From Paenibacillus donghaensis (GTDB lineage: Bacteria > Bacillota > Bacilli > Paenibacillales > Paenibacillaceae), in the NCBI RefSeq assembly GCF_002192415.1, contig NZ_CP021780.1, positions 3,906,001 to 3,970,000 of the forward strand: 64,000 nt of DNA, in the 5' to 3' direction. The notes beneath the pieces were generated by a model. It searched no databases. It had not been told where the DNA came from and was given only the letters and a program-made list of their open reading frames with translations. Position 1 is the first letter of the stretch. The number at the start of each line of letters is the position of its first letter. Positions 4,037 to 40,901 of the stretch are shown piece by piece. The position numbers and the translations under genes are program-made.

Positions 4037-4906
4037 ATGGATAAAAAACTGATGAAGCTTCTAAAAAAGCTGTATCTTCATGCGAATTCCGTCTATGATG
4101 CCGAGCGCGCGGTCAGCACCTACCGCACCGACACGTTAAGTCCTCAGGAAACTGAACTACTGCAGCAGCATGGCTGGGAGCTGAATGCCATGGAACACCT
4201 GACACATGATGGAGTGAACCGGAAGCTGGTAGACTTGCAAGCAGATGAACGTCTGTCCTGGCCTGTCATTGCCGGAGCCTTCATCGCCGGTGTCGGTGGC
4301 AGCTTCCCCCGGGGAATCTCTGCACTTATGAGCTATCATATGATGATTCATATGCAGGAGCATCCCTATGACCAGGCCAAACATTTCATCTGCTGCCGCT
4401 ATTGTGCCCATCATAGAGACGGCTGGGAGCACCTCTCCTATATACAATACGCTCTTCATCAAGGCCATATTTATGGCAGCAGCAGTGTGGGCGCTTATGC
4501 TGACCTGAGTGAATTCGCCAAGCTGGCCGGGGAACAGAGAATCCTCCCTACAGCGGAGGACATCCAGCAGTTCAAGAGCCTGCTGCGGCTTCTTGAAGAG
4601 GCTGCCGAGGACGAGTCGCCGGGGCAATTCGAGAAACGCCTCACCACAGAGAAGCTGCTTAAGAGTGGTGCCGGCATCCGCCGGGGTATTCTACAATCCC
4701 TTGCCATGGTCGGTGTACTGCCGAACCGGGTGCTGGCGCTTGATCCCGGCCACTGGACTTATATGGAGGATATATTGGAAGGCGAGCCGCAGCTGAACAA
4801 TACCAAAGGCCGCTCCGATATGCAGATGCCTTGGGCCGGCTGGATCGGCAGCCTGGGTGTCGACCGCGACAAGGCTCAGCAGCTTTTTGGGGAATATTTG
4901 AATTAA
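4037..4906 (+). CDS. Conserved-looking hypothetical protein with a CCxxC motif
   Basis: 289 residues, ATG preceded by CAGGAGG. I do not recognise the family. Visible features: a charged N-terminal helix, a glycine-rich apolar segment (AGAFIAGVGGSFPRGIS, about residues 80-96) that could touch a membrane, a cluster of His and Cys (FICCRYCAHHRDGW, about 120-135) that could bind metal, and an acidic helix around 180-195. Codon use matches neighbouring housekeeping-type genes, so it is likely expressed. Single-gene unit. Confidence 0.6.
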   Translation: MDKKLMKLLKKLYLHANSVYDAERAVSTYRTDTLSPQETELLQQHGWELNAMEHLTHDGVNRKLVDLQADERLSWPVIAGAFIAGVGGSFPRGISALMSYHMMIHMQEHPYDQAKHFICCRYCAHHRDGWEHLSYIQYALHQGHIYGSSSVGAYADLSEFAKLAGEQRILPTAEDIQQFKSLLRLLEEAAEDESPGQFEKRLTTEKLLKSGAGIRRGILQSLAMVGVLPNRVLALDPGHWTYMEDILEGEPQLNNTKGRSDMQMPWAGWIGSLGVDRDKAQQLFGEYLN

Positions 4907-5421: not shown

Positions 5422-6681
5422 ATGAGATTATTGAATCTTTTAACTCGATTTGAACTGCGTAAAATACTGAGAAGAAAATCCACTTTAGTGGGAATTATTA
5501 TTATATTGGCTGTCGCTGTCTTTCTAGAATTCATGTCCGTTTCGGGAGAAAATGTTGTAGGCGAAGATGGTAATGATATCTCCGGCCTGTCTGCGATCAG
5601 CTTATCCAGACAGAATGCACATAGACTTGCAGGTGAATTAAACACTGAGAGTATTGCAGCAGCTATAGATCGGCACCTTTTAGCGACAAAAAAAACGGAA
5701 AATTTAAATAAGACCACAGAAGAGGGAATATCCCTTTCAAATAAGGCTTATGGGAAATATGAACAGAAAGACGTTGAGATCAATAATTTAATTCGTATAG
5801 CCTACTCCTCTTCAGATAAATATGATTACTATATTATGGACAAACTTTCTACTCATGATGCTTCTGCTTTCTACCAAAAAAGAATGGATAAGATCAATAA
5901 GTATCTCAACATGGAGTTTTCATACGGCAATTATTCTACTGATGAGAAGGATTACTTCAAAGCAATGAATGGTAAAATTAACGTTCCTTTCAAATTTGAT
6001 TATTCCAGCGGCTGGATGAACTTAATGCGCGATCTTGACCTCGTTATTTTAGTTACCGCCTTTGTCATTAGTCTAAGCGTATCCAGGGTTTTTGCCGGTG
6101 AGTACCAGTCTGGGGCAGATTCAATTATCCTCTCTTCACGGTACGGGCGTAGCAAACTGATCAGTGCAAAGCTAAGAGCCAGTTTTCTATTTTCGACGGG
6201 TTTGTATTTCGGAAGCATCCTATTTCTCACCGTAATCATGTTGAGTGTGTATGGACAATATGGGTCGGGTTCCAACATACAAATCATTTTATTTCAGTCC
6301 CCCTACCCATTAACTATATTCCAGACTTATCTCGCATCTGTCCTAATTGGATATATTGCATGTTTACTGATCATGTCTATTACTCTCCTTTTTTCTGCCA
6401 GAATGAAGTCACCATTCTCAGTGATCCTTTGCTCTGTAGTTCTCCTCCTGGCTCCTTTGTTTATTCCGGATAGTAAAAGCAGTCGATTGTTTAATAATCT
6501 TCTAAATTTGCTACCTAGCAAAATGTTAGATGGATATTCAGTTTTCGCGCGCTATGAAAGTTACCATGTATTTAATCGTATAATCGCAGAACCTTGGGTT
6601 ATAGGAGCAGTAGCCCTCACCTTCACATTGGCTTTCCTTCCATTTACCTATCACAGCTTTAAACATCATCAGGTAGTTTAA
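5422..6681 (+). CDS. ABC-2-type transporter permease (orphan)
   Basis: 419 residues. A membrane anchor at about 20-38 is followed by a roughly 160-residue Lys/Asp/Tyr-rich extracellular region, then about five more membrane segments (around 205-225, 255-280, 300-325, 332-352, 390-410). This is the layout of ABC-2 permeases such as those of bacteriocin or lipid export. No ATP-binding gene adjoins it; upstream is only a remnant of a different ABC exporter. The AT-rich codon use (many AAT, ATA, TTA) differs from genes at 2-5 kb, suggesting transfer. AGGAAAGG precedes the ATG. Confidence 0.75.
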   Translation: MRLLNLLTRFELRKILRRKSTLVGIIIILAVAVFLEFMSVSGENVVGEDGNDISGLSAISLSRQNAHRLAGELNTESIAAAIDRHLLATKKTENLNKTTEEGISLSNKAYGKYEQKDVEINNLIRIAYSSSDKYDYYIMDKLSTHDASAFYQKRMDKINKYLNMEFSYGNYSTDEKDYFKAMNGKINVPFKFDYSSGWMNLMRDLDLVILVTAFVISLSVSRVFAGEYQSGADSIILSSRYGRSKLISAKLRASFLFSTGLYFGSILFLTVIMLSVYGQYGSGSNIQIILFQSPYPLTIFQTYLASVLIGYIACLLIMSITLLFSARMKSPFSVILCSVVLLLAPLFIPDSKSSRLFNNLLNLLPSKMLDGYSVFARYESYHVFNRIIAEPWVIGAVALTFTLAFLPFTYHSFKHHQVV

Positions 6682-6827
6682 GGGACGAACGAATCAAATT
6701 ATGTACAGGGTTTGTTGTCCCATAGGCAATCTTCCTATCTACTCTATGAGTATGTTCTTGGGAAATTCAATCAATTTTAGTATAATAACTTCAGAATCTA
6801 AATTTAATATGGCAGGTGGAGACTCAG

Positions 6828-7112
6828 ATGGGCATACAAGCAATTATAGACTTTAGGAATACAATTGAAGAAATATCGATGTTAAAAGAGATTGATGAAC
6901 ATAAATTACTCGACCCCATTAAGGAAGGGAAATGGTCAATTAGGGAGATAGTTGGACACCTATACTATTGGGATAAATTCATCTTAGAACAGCATGTCCC
7001 TTCAATAGCTCAAGGGGCAAATCTAATTGCATTTCCAGACCACGACTTCCACAATAATGAAGCGATTCAGCATATCAGTAGCATTGAGAATGTCGTTGCC
7101 TTAATTGATTAG
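6828..7112 (+). pseudogene. DinB-family protein, truncated by a stop
   Basis: Begins at ATG 6828 after AGGTGGAG. The start MGIQAIIDFRNTI and the segment KWSIREIVGHLYYWDKFI are typical of DinB/YfiT four-helix proteins, in which the His of the GHL motif binds metal. The frame meets TAG at 7110-7112 after 94 residues, but coding-like sequence continues in the same frame (FIHTRNQLLEIINSIKSD) to about 7222, so a nonsense mutation or decay has cut a roughly 150-residue protein. It abuts the scrambled region that follows. Confidence 0.6.
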
Positions 7113-7205
7113 TTTATACATACACGTAACCAGTTACTTGAAATTATCAATAGTATCAAAAGTGATACCACAAATGACAAATTCTTCTACTCCCCTTCCC
7201 AAATT

Positions 7206-7371
7206 TTAATCACATTTTTTAACTTCGCCACGATAATTTGCCATTCTGAAACTAGCTCCACATCCACATGAAGCTTTTGCATTAGGGTTATTCAAGGTGA
7301 ACCCGCCTATCATACCGCCTTCTTCATAGTCAATTTGAAGACCTTCAATATATTTAATACTATTAGTGGAT
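7206..7371 (-). pseudogene. C-terminal half of a HesB/IscA-type Fe-S assembly protein
   Basis: Minus strand encodes SIKYIEGLQIDYEEGGM, GGFTLNNPNAKASCGCGASF and a short tail ending at TAA 7206. The CGCG segment supplies the two C-terminal iron-binding cysteines of A-type carriers. There is no start; the homology stops at about 7371, where unrelated plus-strand sequence begins. The matching N-terminal half lies on the same strand at 15098-15294, and the two halves add up to the usual length of about 118-120 residues. Confidence 0.8.
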
Positions 7372-7374
7372 GAA

Positions 7375-7446
7375 GATTGCAAACAACAGTTGACAATTGC
7401 CTTTATCCTGGCAGTTCGTCGCTTTGATCTTAGTCGTTACAAATAA
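7375..7446 (+). pseudogene. Last 23 codons of an HTH_16-type protein
   Basis: Encodes DCKQQLTIAFILAVRRF plus DLSRYK and stop, nearly identical to the end of the intact gene at 13923-14120. Only the C-terminus is present, joined directly to the broken Fe-S gene. This is the start of the left copy of the direct repeat. Confidence 0.75.
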
Positions 7447-7447
7447 T

Positions 7448-7493
7448 ACAAGGACAAGCCATGTGGAGTTTGCTTCACATGGCTTGTCCTTGT
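7448..7493. terminator. 18-bp perfect stem terminator
   Basis: ACAAGGACAAGCCATGTG pairs fully with its complement across a 10-base loop, directly after the stop codon of the HTH_16 remnant. The equivalent hairpin at 14122-14166 follows the intact gene. Confidence 0.7.
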
Positions 7494-7749
7494 ATTCACA
7501 TACTGTATTCTAAATTATTTATAGAGAAATATTCGAGGAAGCAGTTGCTCTTTTCTCTCTTCCTCCCCATTTATATAACAGGAAGCAATCATCAGATCTT
7601 AATGTTACCTTGATTGCCCCTCGATCTTTAGGAACTTCATATTAATTGTTTCAAGTACGTTCTTTTCTCTGCTGTCTGCCATATCGCCAAAAGGGGACAA
7701 GTCCAGAGAACGACTAACCGGCGATTGCCGGCGTTCGCCCTCCAAAGCA

Positions 7750-7869
7750 CTATCGTCGAGCAGATGGTTCCTCATAGCTTTGCAAGTCCGCGTCGCGCAA
7801 AGTTCTTCCGACATAGCCCAACTCTCGACGTGCAGCGGCATCGTTGACTGTGAACTCACGCCCGATCAT
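7750..7869 (-). pseudogene. C-terminal fragment of an NAD-dependent epimerase/SDR-like protein
   Basis: From ATG 7869 the minus strand gives GREFTVNDAAARRELGYVG then RTLRDADLQSYEE, resembling the C-terminal K/R-A-x-R-E-L-G-Y segment of extended short-chain dehydrogenases and NAD-dependent epimerases. Only 39 codons are present. It is butted against the broken end of an MFS gene, so it is a splice product of two decayed genes rather than a working small gene. Confidence 0.5.
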
Positions 7870-7874
7870 GCGTA

Positions 7875-8225
7875 TCATCGAGCTACCATTAATACTCCAT
7901 AGTTCGGTGCAAGAGCAGCCAATGCATTACCTGATATGAACAGAATCATAAGAAAAAGAAGCAACTGCTTTCGCTTCATTCGATGAGTGGCGACTGTGAT
8001 GATAGGAGCTCCTATAGCCACACCCAGTGCATATCCGGTAATGAGTAACCCTGCTGAGGGGATGGACACCTGCAAGCTTTTGGCCACTTCAGGAAGTAAC
8101 CCCATAATAATAAATTCAGTCATTCCAATCGCAAATGCCCCTATTGTCAGCGCTAATAGCGCCAAAGTCGGGCTTTTACTTTCTGGTTTATTTTCTATAT
8201 TCACTGCAACCAAATAAATAACCAC
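7875..8225 (-). pseudogene. N-terminal fragment of an MFS efflux transporter
   Basis: 116 codons beginning at GTG 8225. The segment ALLALTIGAFAIGMTEFIIM, then SIPSAGLLITGYALGVAIGA and THRMKRKQ, is the N-terminal third (about three membrane helices and the motif A loop) of drug/sugar-efflux MFS proteins of the AraJ/YdhP type, normally about 400 residues. Homology ends at LMVAR with an immediate TGA, where an unrelated dehydrogenase fragment begins. Transcribed away from the palindromic promoter at 8407-8463. Confidence 0.75.
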
Positions 8226-8406
8226 CTATCCGTTTTTTCAAAAAGAAAGCACTCGAAAGCCAGTAGCTTTAGCACCAGACTCGGGTGATTCCTGCATTAT
8301 TCATAAGCCCCATTCGACAAGCTCTTTTTGCTACTCCTTCGATATAGGTCACCAAACTCCCCAACCTTAATCCCGTCACGAAATAATCGAATATACGATT
8401 CCGGTC

Positions 8407-8463
8407 TTGCCTTTCACTAGAATCATGATACAATAAAAGCTACCGATCGGTATCTTTTATTGT
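8407..8463 (+). promoter_or_regulatory. Promoter with long palindromic operator (copy 1)
   Basis: TTGCCT (8407-8412), 16 bases, TACAAT (8429-8434) form a sigma-A-type promoter. From 8430 to 8463 runs a palindrome centred on TACCGATCGGTA with 16 of 17 arm positions paired. The same arrangement is found before the GAPDH gene (11425-11482). Downstream lies only a broken reading frame (GGAGG then ATG ACT GAA AAG TAG at 8561-8575), so its original target is lost. Confidence 0.75.
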
Positions 8464-8651
8464 ACAACAAGCTGTTCTAGAATAAAATAGCGCCGAGCCA
8501 TTTTGATTTCATGAGAGGTATTCTTTTTGGAATAACTAAAACTTATAGGAGGACTTGAGAATGACTGAAAAGTAGATTTTAAAGGCCTTGGGCTGATCTG
8601 ACCTTATTTTTCGCCGAATTAAAGAGTTGTCACATAATGAATATGTAGTGC
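8464..8651. other. Leader and lost gene after operator copy 1
   Basis: Contains AGGAGGACTTGAGA before ATG 8561, a normal translation start, but the frame stops after four codons. Nothing recognisable follows until the response-regulator fragment. The gene once driven by this promoter seems to have been deleted. Confidence 0.4.
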
Positions 8652-8900
8652 ATGCAAGGACAAGGAAGTGATTATATATTTCTTAAATACGGAACTGAAA
8701 TTCTCATTGTTGCTCGGGATAGACGCATTCAAATGCTTCTCAAATCAAATCTTGAGAAGCAAGACTGCATGGTCGATCAAGCGCATGATGATAAATCATC
8801 ATTTCTTAAAATACGACAGTTCGACTATAGTCCCGTTACATTGGATGCAGCAACTCCTTATCAGGATGAAATTACTCTTTGTTCTAAGATCAAGAAATGA
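8652..8900 (+). pseudogene. Decayed response-regulator receiver domain
   Basis: The segment EILIVARDRRIQMLLKSNLE followed by IRQFDYSPVTLDAATPYQDE keeps the outline of a CheY-like receiver domain (ILIVDDD-R-I near the start; FD-LV-LD-MP-DG around the phosphorylation site). The acidic residues are replaced (VARD for VDDD; TLDAATPYQD around the Asp), and no DNA-binding domain follows before stop at 8900. A non-functional remnant of an OmpR-type regulator. Confidence 0.6.
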
Positions 8901-8956
8901 AATTCAAAAAAGAAAGCTATTGGATAATCCACAACAACCAGGGGAGCTGAAGTAAG

Positions 8957-9910
8957 ATGAGTGAAGCAGCAGAAACAGACACCGGAGCAGGAAGAAGGAA
9001 ATTGATTATGAATAATGGGTTGATCAACGCTATTATCGCCTATATCATGTGGGGAGTTCTCCCGCTTTATTGGAAGTTGTTTAATGATGTGCCTGCAGGC
9101 GAGATTTTATCACATCGGGTTGTCTGGTCGTTTGTCTTCATGGGTATTCTCGTCACCGTCCAGCGCCGCTGGGGTGATATGAAGCGGATTGTGACTAGCC
9201 GTTCGCTCCTGCTATCGCTCACCGCCAGCGGACTATTGATCGCTGCTAATTGGCTCATCTTCATCTGGGCTGTCAACAACAACCATGTCGTTGAGACAAG
9301 CCTCGGCTATTATTTAAACCCGCTGCTGAACGTGTTACTAGCGATCGTCTTCCTTCGTGAGAAGCCGAATCGTGGCCAGTGGCTCGCGATTGCCGTCGCT
9401 GGCGCGGCGGTGCTCATCATCGCAATCGACTATGGGAGATTTCCGTGGGTCGCAATCTCGCTGGCTGCGTCGTTTGGCTTATACGGCCTTGCGAAAAAGA
9501 AGATTGTGCTAAACGCTTCTGTAGGCTTGTTGTCGGAGACAGTTGTAGTTCTACCCATTGCGCTCGGCTACTGGGTCTATTTGGCCTCCGTGGGCAAGGC
9601 GATGGCATGGACACTGCCTCCGTCCATGTTCATCGAACTACTCCTTTCGGGCGTAGTAACGGCACTGCCGCTGTTCTTCTTTGCACGAGCAGCCGCCCGC
9701 ATGGCGTTTTCCACACTCGGATTCGTACAATACATCGGGCCGACAATCATGCTGTTATTGAGCGTATTTGTGTTCAAGGAATCGGTTTCTTCTACTCTTC
9801 TCGTCGGTTTTGCACTCATTTGGACAGCGCTTGTTATATACGCTGTGGCATCAGTTCGTGGCACAAAAGTCACGAAGGTGAATGTGCACCATGATAAAAC
9901 CTATGTATGA
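8957..9910 (+). CDS. rarD: EamA-family transporter, RarD
   Basis: 317 residues from ATG 8957 (GGGGAG ten bases upstream); an ATG at 9008 with AAGGAAA upstream would give 300 residues and fits the usual RarD start NNGLINAIIAYIMWGVLPL. Ten hydrophobic segments and the sequence WKLFNDVPAGEILSHRVVWS identify the RarD branch of drug/metabolite transporters, inner-membrane proteins of unknown substrate, linked by name to chloramphenicol sensitivity. The only intact transporter inside the inserted block; not clearly in an operon. Confidence 0.85.
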   Translation: MSEAAETDTGAGRRKLIMNNGLINAIIAYIMWGVLPLYWKLFNDVPAGEILSHRVVWSFVFMGILVTVQRRWGDMKRIVTSRSLLLSLTASGLLIAANWLIFIWAVNNNHVVETSLGYYLNPLLNVLLAIVFLREKPNRGQWLAIAVAGAAVLIIAIDYGRFPWVAISLAASFGLYGLAKKKIVLNASVGLLSETVVVLPIALGYWVYLASVGKAMAWTLPPSMFIELLLSGVVTALPLFFFARAAARMAFSTLGFVQYIGPTIMLLLSVFVFKESVSSTLLVGFALIWTALVIYAVASVRGTKVTKVNVHHDKTYV

Positions 9911-9919
9911 CGAGGCCTT

Positions 9920-10125
9920 CAGGTGTCAGACAGTACAACATATTAATGAAAGCGTTCAAACGATGACAGATGTCACCCGAGAACTGAAGATTAACCATGA
10001 CACAGTGTATGGTTCTCTAATAATAAGCTGCCCGTTCAAGACAATGTGTTAAACCGCGGGTTCCAAGCGACGAAGCTCGAGGAGAAATGGGGCAGCGATA
10101 TCATCTATGTCTGGGCCGCGGAAAG
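9920..10125 (+). mobile_element. IS3-family transposase remnants
   Basis: Two short pieces: ESVQTMTDVTRELKINHDTV, like the helix-turn-helix of IS3 OrfA, and about 60 bases later NRGFQATKLEEKWGSDIIYV, like the start of the IS3 OrfB catalytic core (normally N-R-x-F-x-A..KW.-TDITY with the first catalytic Asp). Almost all of both orfs is missing. Confidence 0.6.
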
Positions 10126-10231
10126 ATGGATGTTTTGGGCCAAGCCTGTTAGTTAACCAAAAAAGGTAAAAAAGCCGCCTCATTCGGTAAAGTGTTTGTA
10201 CCCCTGCAATCTCCCGAAACGAGGCGGCCTC

Positions 10232-10500
10232 ATGAAAAAACCTACTTCAATATCCAGCATTCTTCAATATACTGATTTCGGAAGAAACCATCCTTCCCTA
10301 CTAAGCGAGATGCACTACGTCGATGTTGCGCGGAAATTCACCGTATATAAGTTATTTGTTTTTGGCGGAAGCTTCCTTCCAGCAATGGAAGGGATTTCGA
10401 GGATGGGGAGCAGCGGATGACGCGTAGCGGGCATGCAAGGTTGACCACTCCACCATTTCTTCAAGCGTTTGCCTACTCTCATGATCAGACTCTACAATCA
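10232..10500 (+). mobile_element. IS4-family transposase N-terminal remnant
   Basis: ATG 10232 opens MKKPTSISSILQ, HYVDVARKFTVYKLFVF, then frame changes, then a VDHSTIS-like segment near 10450. This matches the N-terminal domain of IS4-type DDE transposases (Y-A-x-K-x-T-x-x-K..; later S-T-I-S-K-R). GCCGCCTC and GAGGCGGC at about 10173 and 10219 form an inverted repeat before the ATG and may be part of the IS end. From 10501 to 10765 I see nothing recognisable. Confidence 0.5.
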
Positions 10501-10765
10501 AAAAAACGGCCTCCTACCTTGGGCTCCCCATAAGGGGCAAAAACAGGGGTATAGCTACATGTCGGACTTCTTGGCGACCGTGGAGAACTCTACAACGTTC
10601 CGAAACAACAGGATATAAGCCCGATTTAAAACGCTACCCTCATTTGCTGGACCTGGGGTAACATCCTGGTCGCAACAAATACTTTTATGTCGATAATATA
10701 CCTCCAAAATGATGAGAGAGATTATATAAGCATCTTATTCTCTCTACGCTTCCAAGCACAACTGA

Positions 10766-11365
10766 TTAACTATTTTTCAAACAACAATTCTGTAAATAGA
10801 ATGCAAAGCATGCTGTATTCATTTGCATATGCTTATTATCCCCATCTAACTTGCTGAGTAAAATGCCTCCTTCGAGCAAGGAAAAGGCAAATGAAGCAAG
10901 TGCATCCGCATTCAAATCCTCCTTAAACTCCCCACTATTTATCCCGTTAAGAATTATACTCTTTATCATATCCAAATGGTTATGCAGCCCTTGTCTTGCC
11001 CGATCTCGAAGCTCCGTATGAGTATCGTCACTTTCTACTGCTGTATTCTGCATAGGACATCCGCCAACAAATGGTGGATTACCAACAACATCTTCATAAA
11101 CACGAAAAAAAGCAAGTAACCTCCCTGACGCAGACTGCTCCCGATCGACCGCCTCAGCAAATTTGCTGATAACTATACTGGCAGCGTAGTTGTAGGCTTC
11201 AAGCGCAATCTCATCTTTATTTGTAAAATGTCGGTAGATGCCCCCCTTCTTAATCCCGGTGTCGGCAATAATATCGTTTAACGATGTACCAGCATAACCT
11301 CTTTGATTAAAGATTGCTGCCGATTTCATAATAATGTGCTCTCTTGTTCGATCTCCTTTTTTCAT
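10766..11365 (-). CDS. TetR-family regulator, NemR/YxaF-like
   Basis: 199 residues from ATG 11365, chosen because GGAGGAAACT lies directly before it. The N-terminal TetR helix-turn-helix (GYAGTSLNDIIADTGIKKGG, then IYRHFTNKDE) is intact. The ligand domain contains GGCPMQNTAVE, the conserved segment of TetR proteins of the NemR/AcnR/YxaF kind; in E. coli NemR cysteine chemistry senses electrophiles. It is divergent from the GAPDH gene, with a 36-bp palindrome overlapping the GAPDH promoter between them, so it is the likely repressor of that gene and perhaps of copy 1 at 8407. Confidence 0.85.
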   Translation of the reverse strand: MKKGDRTREHIIMKSAAIFNQRGYAGTSLNDIIADTGIKKGGIYRHFTNKDEIALEAYNYAASIVISKFAEAVDREQSASGRLLAFFRVYEDVVGNPPFVGGCPMQNTAVESDDTHTELRDRARQGLHNHLDMIKSIILNGINSGEFKEDLNADALASFAFSLLEGGILLSKLDGDNKHMQMNTACFAFYLQNCCLKNS

Positions 11366-11424
11366 AGTTTCCTCCAAATGATCTTATTCTAAACTAACAT
11401 TATATCAAATTTACGGCCGAAACC

Positions 11425-11482
11425 TTGCCAAAGTTTTAAATTCTGATATAATAAAAGATACCGATCGGTATTTTTTATTATA
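11425..11482 (+). promoter_or_regulatory. GAPDH promoter with long palindromic operator (copy 2)
   Basis: TTGCCA (11425-11430), a 16-base spacer and a perfect TATAAT (11447-11452). A palindrome runs from 11447 to 11482, centred on TACCGATCGGTA with 17 of 18 positions paired, so it covers the -10 element and the expected transcription start. That placement allows direct repression, most likely by the divergent TetR protein. Confidence 0.8.
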
Positions 11483-11595
11483 AAACAAACCCATTCCAAA
11501 GGCAAACTTGTTTGGCTTCGGCCCATTGTTTACCTTTAAGTTCTATGGACAAACTTATGTGGAATGGATTTAGAACGAAACAGGAGGACTATTCA

Positions 11596-12606
11596 ATGAG
11601 AATAAAAGTAGGCATTAATGGTTTTGGGCGAATTGGAAGACTCGCTTTCCGTCGTATTCAGGAAATGGAAAATATCGAAGTTGTAGCGATAAACGATTTA
11701 ACTGACGCAAAAATGCTGGCGCATCTGCTCAAATATGATACTACACAAGGCACTTTCCATGGTGACATTGAAGTTCATGATGGAGCTCTTACTGTTAACG
11801 GCCAAGAAATTAAAGTGCTGGCTAACCGCAACCCTGAAGAAATCCCTTGGGGCGAGCTTGGCGTAGCTATCGTACTCGAATGTACTGGTTTCTTCACCAC
11901 CAAAGAGAAGGCAGAGCTTCACCTGAAAGGCGGAGCAAAGAAGGTCGTTATTTCCGCTCCGGCAACAGGCGACATGAAGACCATCGTATATAACGTAAAC
12001 CATGAAACACTGGACGGAACGGAAACCGTCATTTCCGGTGCTTCTTGCACAACGAACTGTCTCGCTCCCATGGCTAAAGCTTTGAACGATAAATTTGGAA
12101 TTCAGTCCGGGTTGATGACCACCGTTCACGCCTATACAGGCAACCAGAATACTCTTGATGCGCCAGATTCAAAAGGAAACTTCCGCGCAGCACGGGCTGC
12201 AGCAGAGAACATTGTTCCTTACTCCACTGGTGCTGCTAAAGCCATTGGCCTCGTTCTTCCTGAATTGAAGGGTAAACTTGATGGTGCATCTCAGCGTGTA
12301 CCTGTAGCAACAGGCTCCGTAACAGAACTCGTAGCTGTTTTGAACACGAAGGTTACGGTTGAAGAAGTTAATGCCGTTATGAGAAAAGCATCAGATCCAG
12401 AAACATACGGATATACTGAGGACGAGATCGTATCTTCCGATGTTAGAGGAATGACATTGGGGTCTCTTTTTGATGCAACTCAAACAAAAGTTCTAACAGT
12501 TGGCGACCAGCAACTGGTGAAAACTGTAGCCTGGTACGATAATGAAATGTCTTACACCGCGCAACTGGTTAGAACATTAGAATACTTCGCAAAAATCGCC
12601 AAGTAA
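11596..12606 (+). CDS. gap: Glyceraldehyde-3-phosphate dehydrogenase, type I
   Basis: 336 residues, full length. Start ATG 11596 follows CAGGAGGACT; a longer upstream frame lacks such a site. NAD-binding [12 protein letters not shown] at the N-terminus, Asp in AINDLTD (fits NAD rather than NADP use), catalytic cysteine in [10 protein letters not shown], and the C-terminal WYDNEMSY. It oxidises glyceraldehyde-3-phosphate in glycolysis. Oddly it lies in a decayed inserted region, away from pgk/tpi/eno, and behind a TetR-type operator. A second, inducible GAPDH is more likely than the housekeeping copy; resistance to thiol-reactive compounds is an inference. Confidence 0.93.
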
Positions 12607-12826
12607 CATCATTGCAATTCTTCTTCACCCTAGCTGCAAGCATCAAAAGAGCAGGGTTTATATGTACTGTACGGAAAGCTGCATAAGCAGGAGCAAGATC
12701 GGCACTTCCGATTTCTAGAAAGTTACGCCAGGTGAAGAGTTAAGTTTTATCAAGACATGATTGATGAAATAAAGAAAATGCGAACGATGAAGCTGATAGC
12801 ACAGCCTTTATGAAAGGGGTCATGAA

Positions 12827-13065
12827 GTGGGAGATTCTGAGGAATTGTTCGAAGAAGTAGATGATGTATTGAGAAGACTGCGTCCTTTTTAAACCGCGAT
12901 GGCGGAGATGCCGAATTGGTTCAAGTTAAGGACGGAGTGGTTAAACTAAAATTCTTGGGAGCGTGCAACGGCTGTCCTAGTGCAACGATCACATTGAAGG
13001 CTGGAATTGAACGTGCCATTTTTGAAGAAGTGGATGGCATTCATGAAGTCGTTCAAGTCTTCTAG
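12827..13065 (+). pseudogene. Nfu-type Fe-S scaffold protein with a -1 frameshift
   Basis: GTG 12827 follows AAAGGGG and opens VLRRLRPF, then hits TAA because a T-run at 12886-12890 has five T where six would keep frame. In the shifted frame the protein continues [38 protein letters not shown] and ends VVQVF at 13065. The CNGCP motif gives the CxxC that binds the transferred Fe-S cluster. Total length would be about 79 residues, normal for a stand-alone Nfu domain. Sequencing error is possible. Between 12607 and 12826 there is only an unrecognised 26-codon tail-like stretch. Confidence 0.8.
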
Positions 13066-13241
13066 AGAAAGGGTGACCACACAAACTACTTCCTTGCTGA
13101 TATATGTTTGGATGCCTTTTCGCTACAATAAGAGCGTAAACTAACTTGAAAAACATACTGCTTCATGACGAAGATTGCTCTATATCCAACGAAAGTATGT
13201 GCTTCTGAAAAGATTGGCTTTTCCAAGTGCATGAAGTGATC

Positions 13242-13500
13242 GCGCTTCAAATTGGCCGCAGCACTCTGCCTCTGCCAGCCATATCGCTAGGTCTGCAGCA
13301 TAACTTTGAAAGGCAGCTCCATGGTCTCGCGAGCAGAAGATGTCCTAATTGGCCCTCTCCGGGGTGCTTCGTGGCAGTAGAGTGACCTCAGCATTGATCG
13401 GCGCTAGCTAAGTTAGTCAAGTTGAGGATGCGGTATCGTTAAATGTACCGGAGCTTAGCCGGAAGAACTGGAACGGATCGAAGCCATTTTGCTCGGATAA
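13242..13500 (+). pseudogene. Aldo/keto reductase with its centre deleted
   Basis: The start reads GRSTLPLPAISLGLQHNFE, like the N-terminal strand of aldo/keto reductases (R-S-G-L-x-L-P-A-I-S-L-G-L-W). About 100 bases later the frame resembles the C-terminus, TSALIGAS then VSQVEDAVSLNVPEL, with a stop inside and a frameshift before EELERIEAILLG and TAA 13500. About 250 residues of barrel, including the catalytic Tyr/Lys, are gone. From 13066 to 13241 nothing is recognised. Confidence 0.65.
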
Positions 13501-13519
13501 TTTACTTTCAATATAGGGG

Positions 13520-13539
13520 GCGGGGACAACAGTCCCCGC
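13520..13539. terminator. Short GC-rich hairpin
   Basis: GCGGGGAC and GTCCCCGC pair across a four-base loop, followed by TTATTCTATTCTAT. It directly follows the aldo/keto reductase remnant and may have been its terminator. Confidence 0.5.
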
Positions 13540-13654
13540 TTATTCTATTCTATCTACAGCCCATGCATGGGCTTGCGCTCTACTGAGCCTTTACACTCTA
13601 CTCCTTGTTCATCCCTTTTCATTACAGGTTTATTTTCCGGATCATGCTCTGGAG

Positions 13655-13891
13655 TTGTCAACAAAAGTGCAGTTTGAAAACACACACAACAAGCTGATGG
13701 CTGCTTGCGGCGTTATACTAGGTCCACTCTATGGCACACTGCAAAGCATTATCGGCGGGTTGACGCTGGTGCTGCTGATTGCTGTTGCCAGCAGTTTCCG
13801 TTTCGGCTTTCAAGTTGCTAAACAAACAGCATTGCCACTGGCTCCTTTTCTGGCTATTGGCGGCATCGCTGCTTTTTTTCTTTCGTATTAA
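13655..13891 (+). CDS. Small membrane protein resembling the C-terminal half of prepilin peptidase
   Basis: 78 residues from TTG 13655. KLMAACGVILGP near the start and PLAPFLAIGGIAAFF at the end match the second half of type IV prepilin peptidases (A24 family), which read GxGDxKLxAAxG and later P-F-G-P-F-L-A-x-G. The catalytic GxGD Asp is missing (FENTHNKLM) and there is no N-terminal half, so this is probably a fragment rather than an active protease. Two to three membrane segments. It lies 31 bases before the HTH_16 gene. Family match is from memory only. Confidence 0.4.
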   Translation: MSTKVQFENTHNKLMAACGVILGPLYGTLQSIIGGLTLVLLIAVASSFRFGFQVAKQTALPLAPFLAIGGIAAFFLSY

Positions 13892-13922
13892 AGCTATTTT
13901 TCATTTCGTATTAAGGATAAAT

Positions 13923-14120
13923 ATGAATAGCGTATCTAATCTGCTTCATTTAGCACAACAAGGTGACAAAGAAGCTGAAGCCAAATTGATTATCCGTTAT
14001 GAGCCTGTTATAAATAAATACGCTAAACGAAATGGAACCATTGATGCAGATTGCAAACAACATTTGACAATTGCCTTTATCCTGGCAGTTCGTCGCTTTG
14101 ATCTCAATCGTTATAAATAA
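13923..14120 (+). CDS. HTH_16-type helix-turn-helix protein of mobile elements
   Basis: 65 residues, ATG 13923 after TAAGGA. The sequence NLLHLAQQGDKEAEAKLIIR, later HLTIAFILAVRRFDL, is the helix-turn-helix domain type seen in small proteins of Tn916-like conjugative transposons and related elements, which resemble the N-terminal region of sigma factors. It probably regulates element genes. A strong hairpin terminator follows. A truncated duplicate lies at 7375-7446. Confidence 0.7.
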   Translation: MNSVSNLLHLAQQGDKEAEAKLIIRYEPVINKYAKRNGTIDADCKQHLTIAFILAVRRFDLNRYK

Positions 14121-14349
14121 TCACGGGCAAGGCCATGTGGATTTTCTTCACATGGCCTTGCCCGTGTTTTTAGCTAATTTTGTATTAGTGTATTGAGAAC
14201 ATTTTCATGGAGCAAGTTGCTTTTTTCGTTTCAAGTCCCCATTTATATTACAGGAAGCGATCAAGTAGATAATCATATCTACCTTGATTGATTCTTGCTC
14301 CTTGAAAACTTCATATTGCTTGTTTCAAGTACGTTCCTTTCTCTGCTGT
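14049..14349 (+). repeat. Right copy of the roughly 300-bp direct repeat
   Basis: Matches 7375-7673 (end of the HTH_16 gene, hairpin, and about 180 bases of non-coding sequence). It includes its own second hairpin, TCAAGTAGAT paired with ATATCTACCTTGA near 14263-14287. Confidence 0.7.
14122..14166. terminator. 18-bp perfect stem terminator
   Basis: CACGGGCAAGGCCATGTG pairs fully with its complement and is followed by TTTTT. It ends the HTH_16 transcription unit. The stem differs from the copy at 7448-7493 at several positions but pairing is kept in both. Confidence 0.85.
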
Positions 14350-14691
14350 GAAAACAGAAGCGACGAAGTGGAAGCGCCATGATAGCTCTCTATTAGGGCT
14401 TGAGCGACCACCTCTCCGGCTGTAATCATCCTGTGGTGGGATGAATCGCCATAACCAGAGTAAGGGATTATGATACTTCTGCCCGGCCAACGTCACGGTA
14501 TTGGGGGCAGCTCGCTCGGATGAGGGGGAGCTTCATCATAACGTTGGAGCTATGATGCTGACTTACCAGCAGCAGCTTGAAATAATTTATCCTTTACCCT
14601 ATGGAGATGAGTGCATTGTGATGTCTTCTTATTATGTGCGTAGCCCACGACTGCACAACTACATATCCTTTTGAAAAGGAGACTTTGTTAT
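14350..14691. other. Gene-less stretch inside the inserted block
   Basis: No intact gene. A short plus-strand piece near 14560-14640 (MMLTYQQQLEIIYPLP) looks protein-like but is not recognised and has no clear ribosome binding site. The AAAAGGAG before the next gene lies at the end of this stretch. Confidence 0.3.
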
Positions 14692-14934
14692 ATGCCAGAA
14701 CAATCTGTGCCATTACCTTCGGACACAAAGTATCTTCTTGCATCCATGTTTGAACAATATCCTGATGTTGTGAATGTTCCCCAACTATGCGAAATGCTTG
14801 GCGGAATTAGTCCCAAAAGTGTCTATAAACTTTTACAAGCAAATAGAGTTCCTCATTTTAAAATCGGACGAGCATACAAGATACCCAAAATTCAAGTTAT
14901 TACCTACCTCCAATCATTGATGCAGTCACAATAA
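14692..14934 (+). CDS. Excisionase-like helix-turn-helix protein (HTH_17)
   Basis: 80 residues from ATG 14692, placed there because AAAAGGAG lies ten bases upstream. The segment VNVPQLCEMLGGISPKSVY, then KLLQANRVPHFKIGRAYKIP, is the MerR-like winged HTH of excisionase-family DNA-binding proteins (HTH_17). Such proteins on integrative elements direct excision or regulate transfer genes. It is the last gene before the right border with the broken Fe-S gene; no integrase follows. Confidence 0.75.
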   Translation: MPEQSVPLPSDTKYLLASMFEQYPDVVNVPQLCEMLGGISPKSVYKLLQANRVPHFKIGRAYKIPKIQVITYLQSLMQSQ

Positions 14935-15097
14935 TTACATCCAACAGATAACTTTAACACTTTAACGCATTGAACCAATATTTTTACTATGATATAATTA
15001 TAGTGTCAATGGTAGAGATGTGGGCTGCTAACTATGAGGAGGATCGGGTATGATAGCAGGTCACCTACAAGAAAAAAAGGGCCTTTTTTATTTTTTT

Positions 15098-15294
15098 AGT
15101 ATCAACTAATATACTAAATTCACCTTTATTTAATAAGATATCACCTTCTGTGTTCTGCTCATCCACTATAAGAGTATAGGATAAACCACTGCAGCCCCCT
15201 CATCAACGCCTACTCTAAGGAAAGAATTCCGGGCATTAGCACTTGATAAGATTTCGACGATTTTTTCTGATGCTGCTTCACTGACCTGTATCAT
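15098..15294 (-). pseudogene. N-terminal half of a HesB/IscA-type Fe-S assembly protein
   Basis: ATG 15294 after AAGGAGGAATTACTACG opens MIQVSEAASEKIVEILSS, then RVGVDEG. At that point one G is missing from a G-run: with six instead of five the frame continues GCSGLSYTLIVDEQNTEGDI and GEFSILVDT, including the first iron-binding Cys of the family. Homology ends at about 15098. The missing C-terminal half is at 7206-7371 on the same strand. The gene therefore carries both a frameshift and an insertion. Confidence 0.8.
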
Positions 15295-15339
15295 CGTAGT
15301 AATTCCTCCTTGGAACGTCATTTTTAGTTAGCCATAACC

Positions 15340-15480
15340 TTATATGCTGAATTGCAGCATTCTAACCCAGTCCATTAAACAGGGTATGAATGTAACAAGA
15401 GCAGATCCTTTTGGTGTTAATTCATAAATGGTTTGTATGGGGCGTGTCAAACTTACAGTTCTTTTAACCAAATTATCATT
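15340..15480 (-). pseudogene. C-terminal remnant of an HxlR-family regulator
   Basis: Minus strand reads DNLVKRTVSLTRPIQTIYEL then TPKGSALVTFIPCLMDWV and stops at TAA 15340. This is the recognition-wing part of HxlR winged-helix regulators (D-G-L-V-x-R-x-V-Y..V-E-Y-x-L-T-x-x-G). The N-terminal two thirds are absent, replaced by the 3' end of the MFS gene. Confidence 0.6.
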
Positions 15481-16837
15481 TTGGAGCTGGTGTAATCCGA
15501 GTGCTAGCCAATAAACTCATTACGATTAACAAGAGATGAAAACCCATCGTTACAATTAATCCTGATTGCAGTGACATCCCTGCAGCTTGACAAACAACAA
15601 GAATCGAACCGCCTATTCCGATAACTACACCCGGTGTAAAAGAATCCGCAAATTGTAGATTTGCCGAAGTTTTGCCAACCCCTCCTTCCCCTGTTTGAGA
15701 AAATGCCACAACGCCGCTAATAGGATGCGCCAATCCGATTCCGATTCCAGCTATGATTTGACCAATAACCGCAACGGTAACTGTTACAACGGGTATCCAA
15801 AATACGAAGGCAATCCCAATGGCAAGCAGTAGCACACCCAGGATAATTCTTGTATGACGTCCACGCCCCTGGTCTGCTGAGTCCCAACGTCCTTGCAGAT
15901 AAGCAATGATGCACCAACTCAGTGCAGCACTCGCTACAATTAATCCAGCCTGTGAAGGAGTAATACCTTTCACATCTATTAAAGCCAATACCAAGAAATT
16001 CTGTGTGCTGGTATAGGCAGCGAAGAACAGCCCACGTGTTGCCAGAATTGCTGGCATACCTTTTCGGAAAGCAAGAGTTCCCTTGGGTAGCAGTTTGCGC
16101 AGCGGATACACCATTAGCACTAAACCAATAATGACTAAAACAAACCCTGTAATTATCGGCAGCATGCTAAGACCAACTAAGAAAATCCCCGTACCTATCG
16201 TTAATAGTAACGCCATCCATATAGATGCAGCCCCGTTGTCCTCTTGTATCTCCTCTGTTTTTAATTTCCTAAACGCAGGTAAACTAAGCAGTGCTGAAAC
16301 AATCAGGACCGGTAAGATTCCCCAGAAAACAAACCGCCAGGACCACTGATCTGCGATCAGACCTGCAACGTATGGACCGAGCATAGACGGAAGAACGTAG
16401 GCAGTACCGAATGCTCCGAGTATTTTGGCACGTAATTCATCGGGATAACTTAAGGATATTGCAGTGTACACGCAAGTCATTATAGCGCCGGCACCTAAAC
16501 CCTGCATGGCCCGTGACCCTATCATGGTATACATATCCCCTGCTGTTGCGGCAGCAATCAGCCCGACGATAAACAAAAGAAGTGCGATAGTGAATGGTGC
16601 TGCAAGTCCTTGTCTATCAATGATTCGACCGACGACCAAGGTACCGATAATCTGCGCAAGCAGATAAGTACTGAATATCCAACCAAATAGGTCAAGGCCG
16701 TTCAAGTCGCCAGCAATGGAAGGGGCAATAGTCGTTACCGATAGGCCTTCGAATCCAACTGCCATCACCGACAGTATAATTCCTATGGACAATGCAAAAT
16801 AATGTGGGCTGAAAATGCTTTGAGAATTAGACGACAT
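15476..16837 (-). CDS. MFS transporter, drug-export type
   Basis: 453 residues with 12-14 hydrophobic segments. The segment DLFGWIFSTYLLAQIIGTLV followed by GRIIDRQG carries MFS motif A, and RAMQGLGAGAI is the typical helix 4 region of drug:H+ antiporters (DHA-type). It is an inner-membrane exporter; substrate unknown. Divergent from a SufR-like regulator whose promoter is covered by a palindrome, so it is probably controlled by that protein. Its 3' end runs into a decayed HxlR gene. Confidence 0.85.
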   Translation of the reverse strand: MSSNSQSIFSPHYFALSIGIILSVMAVGFEGLSVTTIAPSIAGDLNGLDLFGWIFSTYLLAQIIGTLVVGRIIDRQGLAAPFTIALLLFIVGLIAAATAGDMYTMIGSRAMQGLGAGAIMTCVYTAISLSYPDELRAKILGAFGTAYVLPSMLGPYVAGLIADQWSWRFVFWGILPVLIVSALLSLPAFRKLKTEEIQEDNGAASIWMALLLTIGTGIFLVGLSMLPIITGFVLVIIGLVLMVYPLRKLLPKGTLAFRKGMPAILATRGLFFAAYTSTQNFLVLALIDVKGITPSQAGLIVASAALSWCIIAYLQGRWDSADQGRGRHTRIILGVLLLAIGIAFVFWIPVVTVTVAVIGQIIAGIGIGLAHPISGVVAFSQTGEGGVGKTSANLQFADSFTPGVVIGIGGSILVVCQAAGMSLQSGLIVTMGFHLLLIVMSLLASTRITPAPK

Positions 16838-16931
16838 GAAATGTGACCTCCAAGAAATTTTTTTATGTATACACCATATCCGGATACTTAGTAAACATTA
16901 TTGTTTATAAAGTCTAAGCTACAGTTCAACT

Positions 16932-16967
16932 TTGACTTTGTCAACATTTTTGTTTAAAATGTAGACA
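16932..16967 (+). promoter_or_regulatory. Promoter and palindrome of the SufR-like gene
   Basis: TTGACT (16932-16937), 17 bases, TAAAAT (16955-16960). A palindrome, TGTCAACATTTT and AAAATGTAGACA around five bases (16939-16967), covers the spacer and -10 element; arms match at 11 of 12 positions. This position fits autorepression and shared control of the divergent MFS gene. Confidence 0.65.
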
Positions 16968-17004
16968 ATGATGTAGAGCCAGTTGCTTAAAAAGGAGGTT
17001 CACC

Positions 17005-17670
17005 ATGAGCCGAAATCAAACGAATAAGGATGCCTCAACTAGTACCCGGAGAGCGATCATTGACCTGCTAAAGCAGCAAGGGGGAATGGATGTTGTGGCA
17101 CTATCCTCCAAATTTTCGCTATCTGGAATGGCTATTCGTCAACATTTAAATGCTCTGAAAGAAGAAGGGTTAGTTACTTACGAAGAAGAGGCCCGTCCCA
17201 TGGGTCGACCAACAAAGCTATGGAGATTAACTCCCGAGGCTAATCGGTTTTTTCCAAGCGGATATTCTGAGTTATCAGTCAGTCTGATCCATTCGATGAA
17301 AGAGGCTTTCGGAAACGAGGGGCTGGACAAGCTGCTGGCTGTCCGGAATAAGAATATGCAAGAGCAATATCTCCAACACCTTGGTGACGCATCTGGCGTA
17401 AGAGAGAAGCTGGAGAAACTAGCCGATATTCGAACAAACGAAGGCTATATGGCTGAGATCAAGGATCAAGACGATGGCAGTCTCTTGTTTATTGAGAAGC
17501 ATTGTCCGATCTGTGAAGCTGCTGCTACTTGTACCGGATTATGTAAGAATGAGTTACATTTATTTGCAACCATTCTGGGAGATAATGTTCATATCGAACG
17601 GGTAGAGTATATTTTGGCGGGGGGAAGAAACTGTGTATATAGGGTTAGGGAAGGCGAACAAGCGCATTGA
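17005..17670 (+). CDS. SufR-like winged-helix regulator with Fe-S-type cysteines
   Basis: 221 residues, ATG after AAAGGAGG. An N-terminal winged helix (VALSSKFSLSGMAIRQHLNA, about 30-70) is followed by a helical region and a C-terminal cysteine cluster: Cys 167, 170, 176, 180 and 210, in HCPICEAAATCTGLC and AGGRNC. Cys 167, 180 and 210 sit where SufR, the Fe-S cluster-binding repressor of suf genes, has its ligands, and the HCPI..C..EL pattern is the SufR hallmark. Here the neighbour is an MFS exporter rather than suf genes, so it may sense redox or iron to control export. Confidence 0.75.
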   Translation: MSRNQTNKDASTSTRRAIIDLLKQQGGMDVVALSSKFSLSGMAIRQHLNALKEEGLVTYEEEARPMGRPTKLWRLTPEANRFFPSGYSELSVSLIHSMKEAFGNEGLDKLLAVRNKNMQEQYLQHLGDASGVREKLEKLADIRTNEGYMAEIKDQDDGSLLFIEKHCPICEAAATCTGLCKNELHLFATILGDNVHIERVEYILAGGRNCVYRVREGEQAH

Positions 17671-17795
17671 TGCTGGCAGGCACATGGCGGCGTAATTGTG
17701 CCGATCCATCACTAACTGGAACTCTTTCCTTTCCCGTCAGGAGAATTCCGCAACTTCGTTGGAGCTGTCAGTCGGTTGAGCGAATAGCGGCACCA

Positions 17796-40220: not shown

Positions 40221-40901
40221 TCACTTGGAAGATAGCCTGTAGCCCAGCCCCCATACTGTCTCGATATAATCCTCCTGCGGATTGGCTTGTCTCAGCTTAT
40301 TGCGCAGGTTGCTGATATGGGTCTTGACCGCATTATCATCCCCTACATATTCATCCTGCCAGACGGATTCGTAGAGGTTGGATTTCGTAAATACTTTGCC
40401 GTCATGCTTCATAAGCAGCTCCAGAATCCGGTATTCCTTGGCCGTCAGCTCCAGGCTGGCCTGGTTCACCGTCACGCTCTGGGTGCTGTCGTTCAGCAGC
40501 AGATCTTTATAGCGGATGTTGTGTTGTTCCTTGTGCTGGATAGCAAAGCGCCGCAGATTGGATTCTACCCGCGCCGCCACCTCACCCAGGTCAAACGGCT
40601 TGGTCATATAATCATCCGCACCGAGCTTCAGCAGCTCAATTTTGGTGCCGATCAGGCCTTTGGCGGAAATGACAATCACCGGGACGTTGGAGAACTCCCG
40701 CAGCTCTTTGAGCAGTTCATCACCATTTTTAAAGGGAAGCATGATGTCCAGAATCACCAAATCATATGTACCTTCGCGGATCTCCTCTACACCCTCTGCG
40801 CCGTTATAGAGCGATTTCACTTCATAACCGGCATCACTCAAGGCTTCTGCCAGCATCAGGTTGACATCCTCATGATCTTCAATAATCAGTATGCTGTTCA
40901 C
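40221..40901 (-). CDS. OmpR-family response regulator
   Basis: 226 residues. Receiver domain with acidic pocket EDHED and phospho-Asp in DLVILDIMLPFKNG, signalling Lys in DDYMTKPFDLGE; C-terminal winged helix (AVKTHISNLRNKLRQANPQE, GLGYRL). Usually such regulators are followed by their kinase; here an ABC exporter set follows and the only kinase nearby is at 28944-29864. Confidence 0.92.
   Translation of the reverse strand: MNSILIIEDHEDVNLMLAEALSDAGYEVKSLYNGAEGVEEIREGTYDLVILDIMLPFKNGDELLKELREFSNVPVIVISAKGLIGTKIELLKLGADDYMTKPFDLGEVAARVESNLRRFAIQHKEQHNIRYKDLLLNDSTQSVTVNQASLELTAKEYRILELLMKHDGKVFTKSNLYESVWQDEYVGDDNAVKTHISNLRNKLRQANPQEDYIETVWGLGYRLSSK

Follow-up and report, generated by a model that had tools for sequence, protein, structure and literature searches.

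We found that a gene of the IscA/HesB type in Paenibacillus donghaensis is a pseudogene of an accessory A-type Fe-S carrier (PF01521), whose two parts are separated by a 7.73 kb insert; the evidence supports the insert as foreign and as carrying part of an integrative island. Throughout, the window denotes the whole stretch of 64,000 nucleotides that was analyzed. We consider it probable that the insert is an island fragment, taken up through illegitimate joining and subject to decay thereafter. The kind of event, a gene killed by a stray insertion, is ordinary; here it is resolved at the level of single bases, both junctions being available along with intact relatives, which makes it a well-resolved case of an island piece in a protein gene. 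It also offers a caution, in that genes of an integrative element lying inside a split gene need not mean that this element integrated there by itself.

The minus-strand pieces at 15294-15096 and 7368-7206 were confirmed as two parts of one IscA/HesB-type gene. The N-terminal piece, when written past its frameshift, matches PF01521 with 33.6 bits over profile positions 3-72, and the C-terminal piece follows at positions 76-109 with 20.8 bits, which taken alone is below the cut-off of 26.3; strand and order are right for one gene, as the original prediction had held. That prediction had set an N-terminal half with ribosome-binding site and start at 15098-15294 and a C-terminal half with CGCG and stop at 7206-7371; the start at 15294, the AAGGAGG upstream of it, the CGCG and the stop codon (7208-7206) all stand, and the inner ends move to 15096 and 7368, respectively. 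Joined and compared with IscA-type proteins, the parts give a protein of 118 residues, whose best match in 100 genomes is one intact gene of G060 (91% identity over residues 1-118), with relatives at 63% identity or more in 16 of the 99 other genomes. The halves do not fall into different IscA-type subfamilies, an outcome that had been named as fatal to the one-gene reading: both match the same gene, that of an intact relative (L044:8001-8351), which scores 111.4 bits on the general A-type model TIGR00049 (cut-off 58.8) and does not reach the cut-off of any of the named equivalog models (SufA, ErpA and IscA). Unlike the A-type carriers (IscA/HesB/SufA/ErpA; PF01521, TIGR00049), the window gene is split and frameshifted, and so lacks the intact reading frame of a functional PF01521 carrier.

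Table 1. Features of the split gene, its insert and its neighbors (positions in the window; a dot marks features with no strand)
Feature	Position	Strand	Remark
C-terminal part, split IscA/HesB-type gene	7206..7368	-	carries CGCG and stop
Direct repeat TTAGT, left copy	7363..7367	.	exact 5-base
Insert	7369..15095	.	7727 bases; absent from uninterrupted genes of relatives; outermost base or two ambiguous
Element remnant: HTH_16 gene end and following non-coding DNA	7369..7675	+	79% identical to 14043-14349
MFS transporter gene, truncated	7875..8225	-	97% identity to residues 1-116 of a 403-residue G001 protein
CGAGC at internal deletion of ~2.5 kb relative to G001 (L076)	7879..7883	.	common to both sides
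EamA-family (RarD-like) transporter gene	8957..9910	+	
TetR-family regulator gene	10766..11377	-	
Glyceraldehyde-3-phosphate dehydrogenase (GAPDH) gene	11512..12606	+	
NifU-like remnant	12833..13062	+	matched in two frames
Aldo/keto reductase remnants with stops	13165..13459	+	
Small open frame, hydrophobic by eye	13655..13891	+	without Pfam match
HTH_16 (PF12645) element gene	13923..14120	+	
pemK RNA match (RF02913)	14467..14555	+	34.9 bits; gathering score 34.8
HTH_17 (PF12728) excisionase-like gene	14671..14934	+	
First 14 codons of tyrosine integrase gene	15050..15091	+	cut at right junction
Direct repeat TTAGT, right copy	15096..15100	.	exact 5-base
N-terminal part, split IscA/HesB-type gene	15096..15294	-	start codon at 15294
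G run, frameshift of N-terminal part relative to relatives	15195..15199	-	comparison with relatives
MFS transporter gene beside split gene	15476..16837	-	conserved neighbor in P. terrae
SufR-like regulator gene	17005..17670	+	conserved neighbor

The empty site was read from 15 of 16 relatives (L044-L058) and from 28 loci of named genomes, 24 of which are Paenibacillus (L088-L111); the 39 loci compared include four pairs that are probably duplicate records. In 38 of them the gene is a single match from residue 1 or 2 to 117 (with an internal stop in L057), and only L111 gives two pieces. The relatives thus have one uninterrupted gene and not two independent truncated ones, and the insert is absent from it, which bears out the earlier claim that about 7.7 kb of foreign DNA interrupts one gene. 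In Paenibacillus terrae the uninterrupted copies have the same neighbors as the split gene: in P. terrae NRRL B-30644 (L088) the gene adjoins the same MFS transporter and regulator genes that lie next to it in the window, and L088 6320-8511 corresponds to window 17677-15486 at 93.7% identity. The regulator scores 123 bits against the SufR model TIGR02702, below its cut-off of 178.8. Further along the same locus, L088 8850-9220 corresponds to window 15488-15096 and L088 9215-9423 to window 7368-7164, so that the two window pieces abut on the DNA of relatives with an overlap of 6 bases that contains TTAGT. The halves had been described as free of overlap, which this corrects. To the left of 7164 the window has no further match to L088, L089, L090 or L044. 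In DNA, the host locus is 88-95% identical to P. terrae and G060, whereas identity to G060 falls to 78.6% at the rpoB locus; by this comparison of identities, the host locus itself seems to have been acquired horizontally.

The insert has a G+C content of 43.6% against 48.9% in the rest of the window, and several of its genes are decayed, with a truncated MFS transporter, a NifU-like gene in two frames and an aldo/keto reductase with stops. Its element genes belong with integrative elements of Paenibacillus that reside at tRNA-Leu genes. Among the 100 genomes, 15 carry the HTH_17 protein, at 21 places in all; one of these is the window, and all 20 others abut tRNA-Leu: 16 adjoin a tRNA-Leu gene recognized by ARAGORN, and four adjoin its 3' part, namely 57-62 bases of tRNA-Leu(taa) at 95-100% identity that start near the anticodon. 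The integrase is matched at 19 of these 20 places, several of the matches being broken into pieces or containing a stop, and is without a match at L165. The window insert shares with these tyrosine-integrase elements the HTH_16 gene, the pemK RNA match, the HTH_17 gene and the start of the integrase, in the same order; in contrast to them, it lies in a protein gene, and among the 21 places it alone has neither the integrase body nor the tRNA-Leu part. A tblastn search with the integrase gave no match in window 6500-16500, only about 14 codons being present at the junction, and the longest trace of the tRNA-Leu 3' sequence in the window is 11 bases (4603-4613 and 40322-40332), both outside the insert. 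In the genome G001, DNA related to the right part of the insert runs past the equivalent of window 15091 into integrase sequence (residues 1-401, in two frames) and eight tRNA genes starting with tRNA-Leu(caa), and the counterpart of the left part is on a different contig, preceded by a ParB gene, a weakly sigma-like gene and HTH_16. Insert genes are mostly 87-97% identical to these G001 pieces, with the rpoB locus at 85.7%. Much of the cargo is also found in the same order in G042 (88-94%), where the stretch fetched had no element-gene matches. The literature searched, which takes in little of the subscription journals, yielded no published name for this tRNA-Leu element family and no account of the split gene.

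Both junctions lie inside island genes: at the left within the HTH_16 remnant, at the right at about codon 14 of the integrase. Because the junctions are internal in this way, and because integrase body, tRNA-Leu sequence and terminal inverted repeats were not found, the island did not insert as a whole in the split gene. The original prediction had ascribed the insertion to an integrative element: the HTH_16 and HTH_17 genes of such an element are indeed there in order, but the self-insertion that this implied is not supported, in view of the internal ends, the integrase cut at about codon 14 and the missing tRNA-Leu. At the right junction there are in addition 4-5 T bases that fit neither the donor-like sequences nor the intact gene. 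The TTAGT repeat may be a fill-in duplication, a duplication made by a transposase or bases held in common with a donor. A search for the left-junction pattern in the 100 genomes, with up to 3 mismatches allowed, returned the window itself and, at 2 mismatches, a single place in G017. Of a fill-in duplication and bases in common with a donor, we tentatively infer the former.

The sequence of events that we favor would start with a single insertion, at least about 7.7 kb long, that disrupted an A-type Fe-S carrier gene. The inserted DNA would be the interior of a tRNA-Leu island, comprising the HTH_16 remnant, the cargo, a second HTH_16 gene, the pemK RNA, the HTH_17 gene and the start of the integrase, and this fragment with island-internal ends probably entered by illegitimate end-joining at a staggered break, a mechanism suggested by the form of the junctions. 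Such joining would have left the TTAGT repeat and, at the right junction, a small number of untemplated T bases. Later decay of the insert would account for the deletion in the MFS transporter gene and the breakage of the NifU and aldo/keto reductase genes; the host gene would have gained the frameshift in its N-terminal part, no order among these later steps being implied. That illegitimate joining occurs in the DNA of the insert follows from the MFS deletion, at which CGAGC is shared with both sides in L076. Pseudogenes are known to arise through the insertion of DNA fragments by illegitimate joining, and the present case resembles them in having ends unrelated to element ends, a short repeat, extra bases at a junction and later decay; we saw no difference from them in the window. 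Against the capture of a fragment, it may be observed that an exact 5-base duplication is also left by some transposases.

Transposition has to be weighed against fragment capture. A transposase from elsewhere could have cut at pseudo-ends, moved the island interior and left a 5-base target duplication, for which the exact 5-base direct repeat at the junctions speaks; we nevertheless regard this as unlikely. The insert ends have no terminal inverted repeat, their score being 5.0, whereas 2000 random pairs average 5.8 and 87% of them reach or exceed the score of the ends. Likewise, no transposase domain was found by Pfam in 13 of the 18 insert frames of at least 60 residues, while the remaining five frames overlap the EamA and GAPDH genes, and the extra T bases at the right junction count against transposition. 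More specifically, the interior of tRNA-Leu islands might move without its integrase into protein genes through an external transposition activity, again with a 5-base target duplication. This we hold to be very improbable; if true, such integrase-free transposition would amount to a second, unrecognized way in which island cargo spreads.

It is highly improbable that the whole island inserted itself at a secondary site by means of its tyrosine integrase and later lost both ends, although the insert does carry the HTH_17 gene and the integrase start. Had the whole island entered and then lost its ends, two deletions would have had to stop precisely at the gene junctions, with both gene parts left complete and with a 5-base repeat, and fragment capture is therefore preferred; moreover, all 20 other places are at tRNA-Leu, and the target gene here is no tRNA. 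The recurrence of element pieces in the genome could be taken to indicate an assembly artefact, with the insert wrongly joined into the gene. This is extremely improbable, as the genome assembles into a single contig of 8.54 Mb, its other copies of the element are only 67-85% identical to the window copy, and both gene parts are in the right order and orientation. Finally, programmed excision elements are known from skin in sigK of Bacillus and from the nif elements of cyanobacteria, which likewise leave a protein gene in two ordered parts with several kb of mobile-element DNA between them, here also with a short direct repeat; that the insert is such an element, restoring the gene in some cells, is scarcely credible, since it has no recombinase body and the gene would remain frameshifted in its N-terminal part.

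As to where the insert came from, a recent copy made within the own genome was rejected, the matches there being too divergent. They consist of a GAPDH gene at 76%, element pieces at 77-89%, two short pieces of 137 and 170 bases at 77% and 72%, and palindrome self-matches. In searches with the insert, the best 20 of 45 plasmid records and 15 of 15 phage matches are confined to the GAPDH stretch, and they are therefore uninformative on the island; two Paenibacillus records may be among the other 25 plasmid matches.

As read from its sequence, the host gene cannot give a carrier protein, because 7.7 kb separates its two parts and the N-terminal one is out of frame. The organism thereby loses one A-type Fe-S carrier gene. 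A PF01521 search of its genome gave six places, comprising two full genes above the family cut-off, two weak matches elsewhere and the two parts of the split gene (profile positions 37-73 with 14.9 bits and 73-109 with 18.6 bits). As the two full genes remain, the loss is probably tolerated.

The original prediction had also missed the frameshift at the G run 15199-15195, owing to which reading from the ATG at 15294 gives only 42 residues. This frameshift is possibly a sequencing error. With the G-run pattern, 31 of the 39 loci could be read, the remaining 8 not being readable with it. The run is also of a different length in Paenibacillus sp. OVF10 (L111), where the gene appears as two tblastn pieces, and it may be slippery.

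The gathering score of the pemK RNA family (RF02913) is reached within the element in the window, where the score lies barely above the threshold, as well as in 12 of the 20 element copies outside the window (loci L078, L148, L150, L154 and L156-L163); in every case, the HTH_17 and integrase genes lie downstream of the match. A gene with a weak resemblance to sigma factors is found inside the element in 14 of the 20 other copies, a count that includes the query's own gene and three genes with a stop. The HTH_16 protein, in turn, displays weak matches to the N-terminal parts of sigma factors. Together, the two genes look like a split sigma factor resembling SigO/RsoA. In four copies (L157, L160, L161 and L162), the tRNA-Leu(taa) sequence next to the element is confined to the 3′ part, which begins at tRNA positions 29-34, and this starting point suggests a crossover by the integrase close to the anticodon loop.

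Features discussed, with their coordinates
Feature	Window	Other locus
pemK RNA match (RF02913)	14467-14555	
Sigma-like/HTH_16 observation	13923-14120	L060:5237-5668 + 5757-5960
Conserved carrier, MFS and SufR-like locus	7164-17677	
50-base palindromic sites	8421-8470; 11439-11488	
Carrier-gene G run	15199-15195 (minus strand)	L111, near 10099
DinB-like open frame	6816-7112	

Within the insert, the MFS fragment and the TetR gene are each preceded by one of two palindromic sites, which are 86% identical to each other and are likely to be TetR operators. The host locus, comprising the carrier, MFS and SufR-like genes, is 88-95% identical to its counterparts in P. terrae and in G060, which has the closest intact carrier gene among 100 genomes. 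As rpoB is only 78.6% identical to that of G060, below the value for the locus, the latter seems to move between species. In Paenibacillus sp. OVF10 (L111), the carrier gene, whose insertion site is intact, was matched as two pieces, and its G run, at the position of the frameshift in the window copy, is likewise of a different length; accordingly, this run may mutate repeatedly. Immediately to the left of the split gene lies a DinB-like open frame (E = 0.00013, under the cut-off), which ends before the full length of the family.
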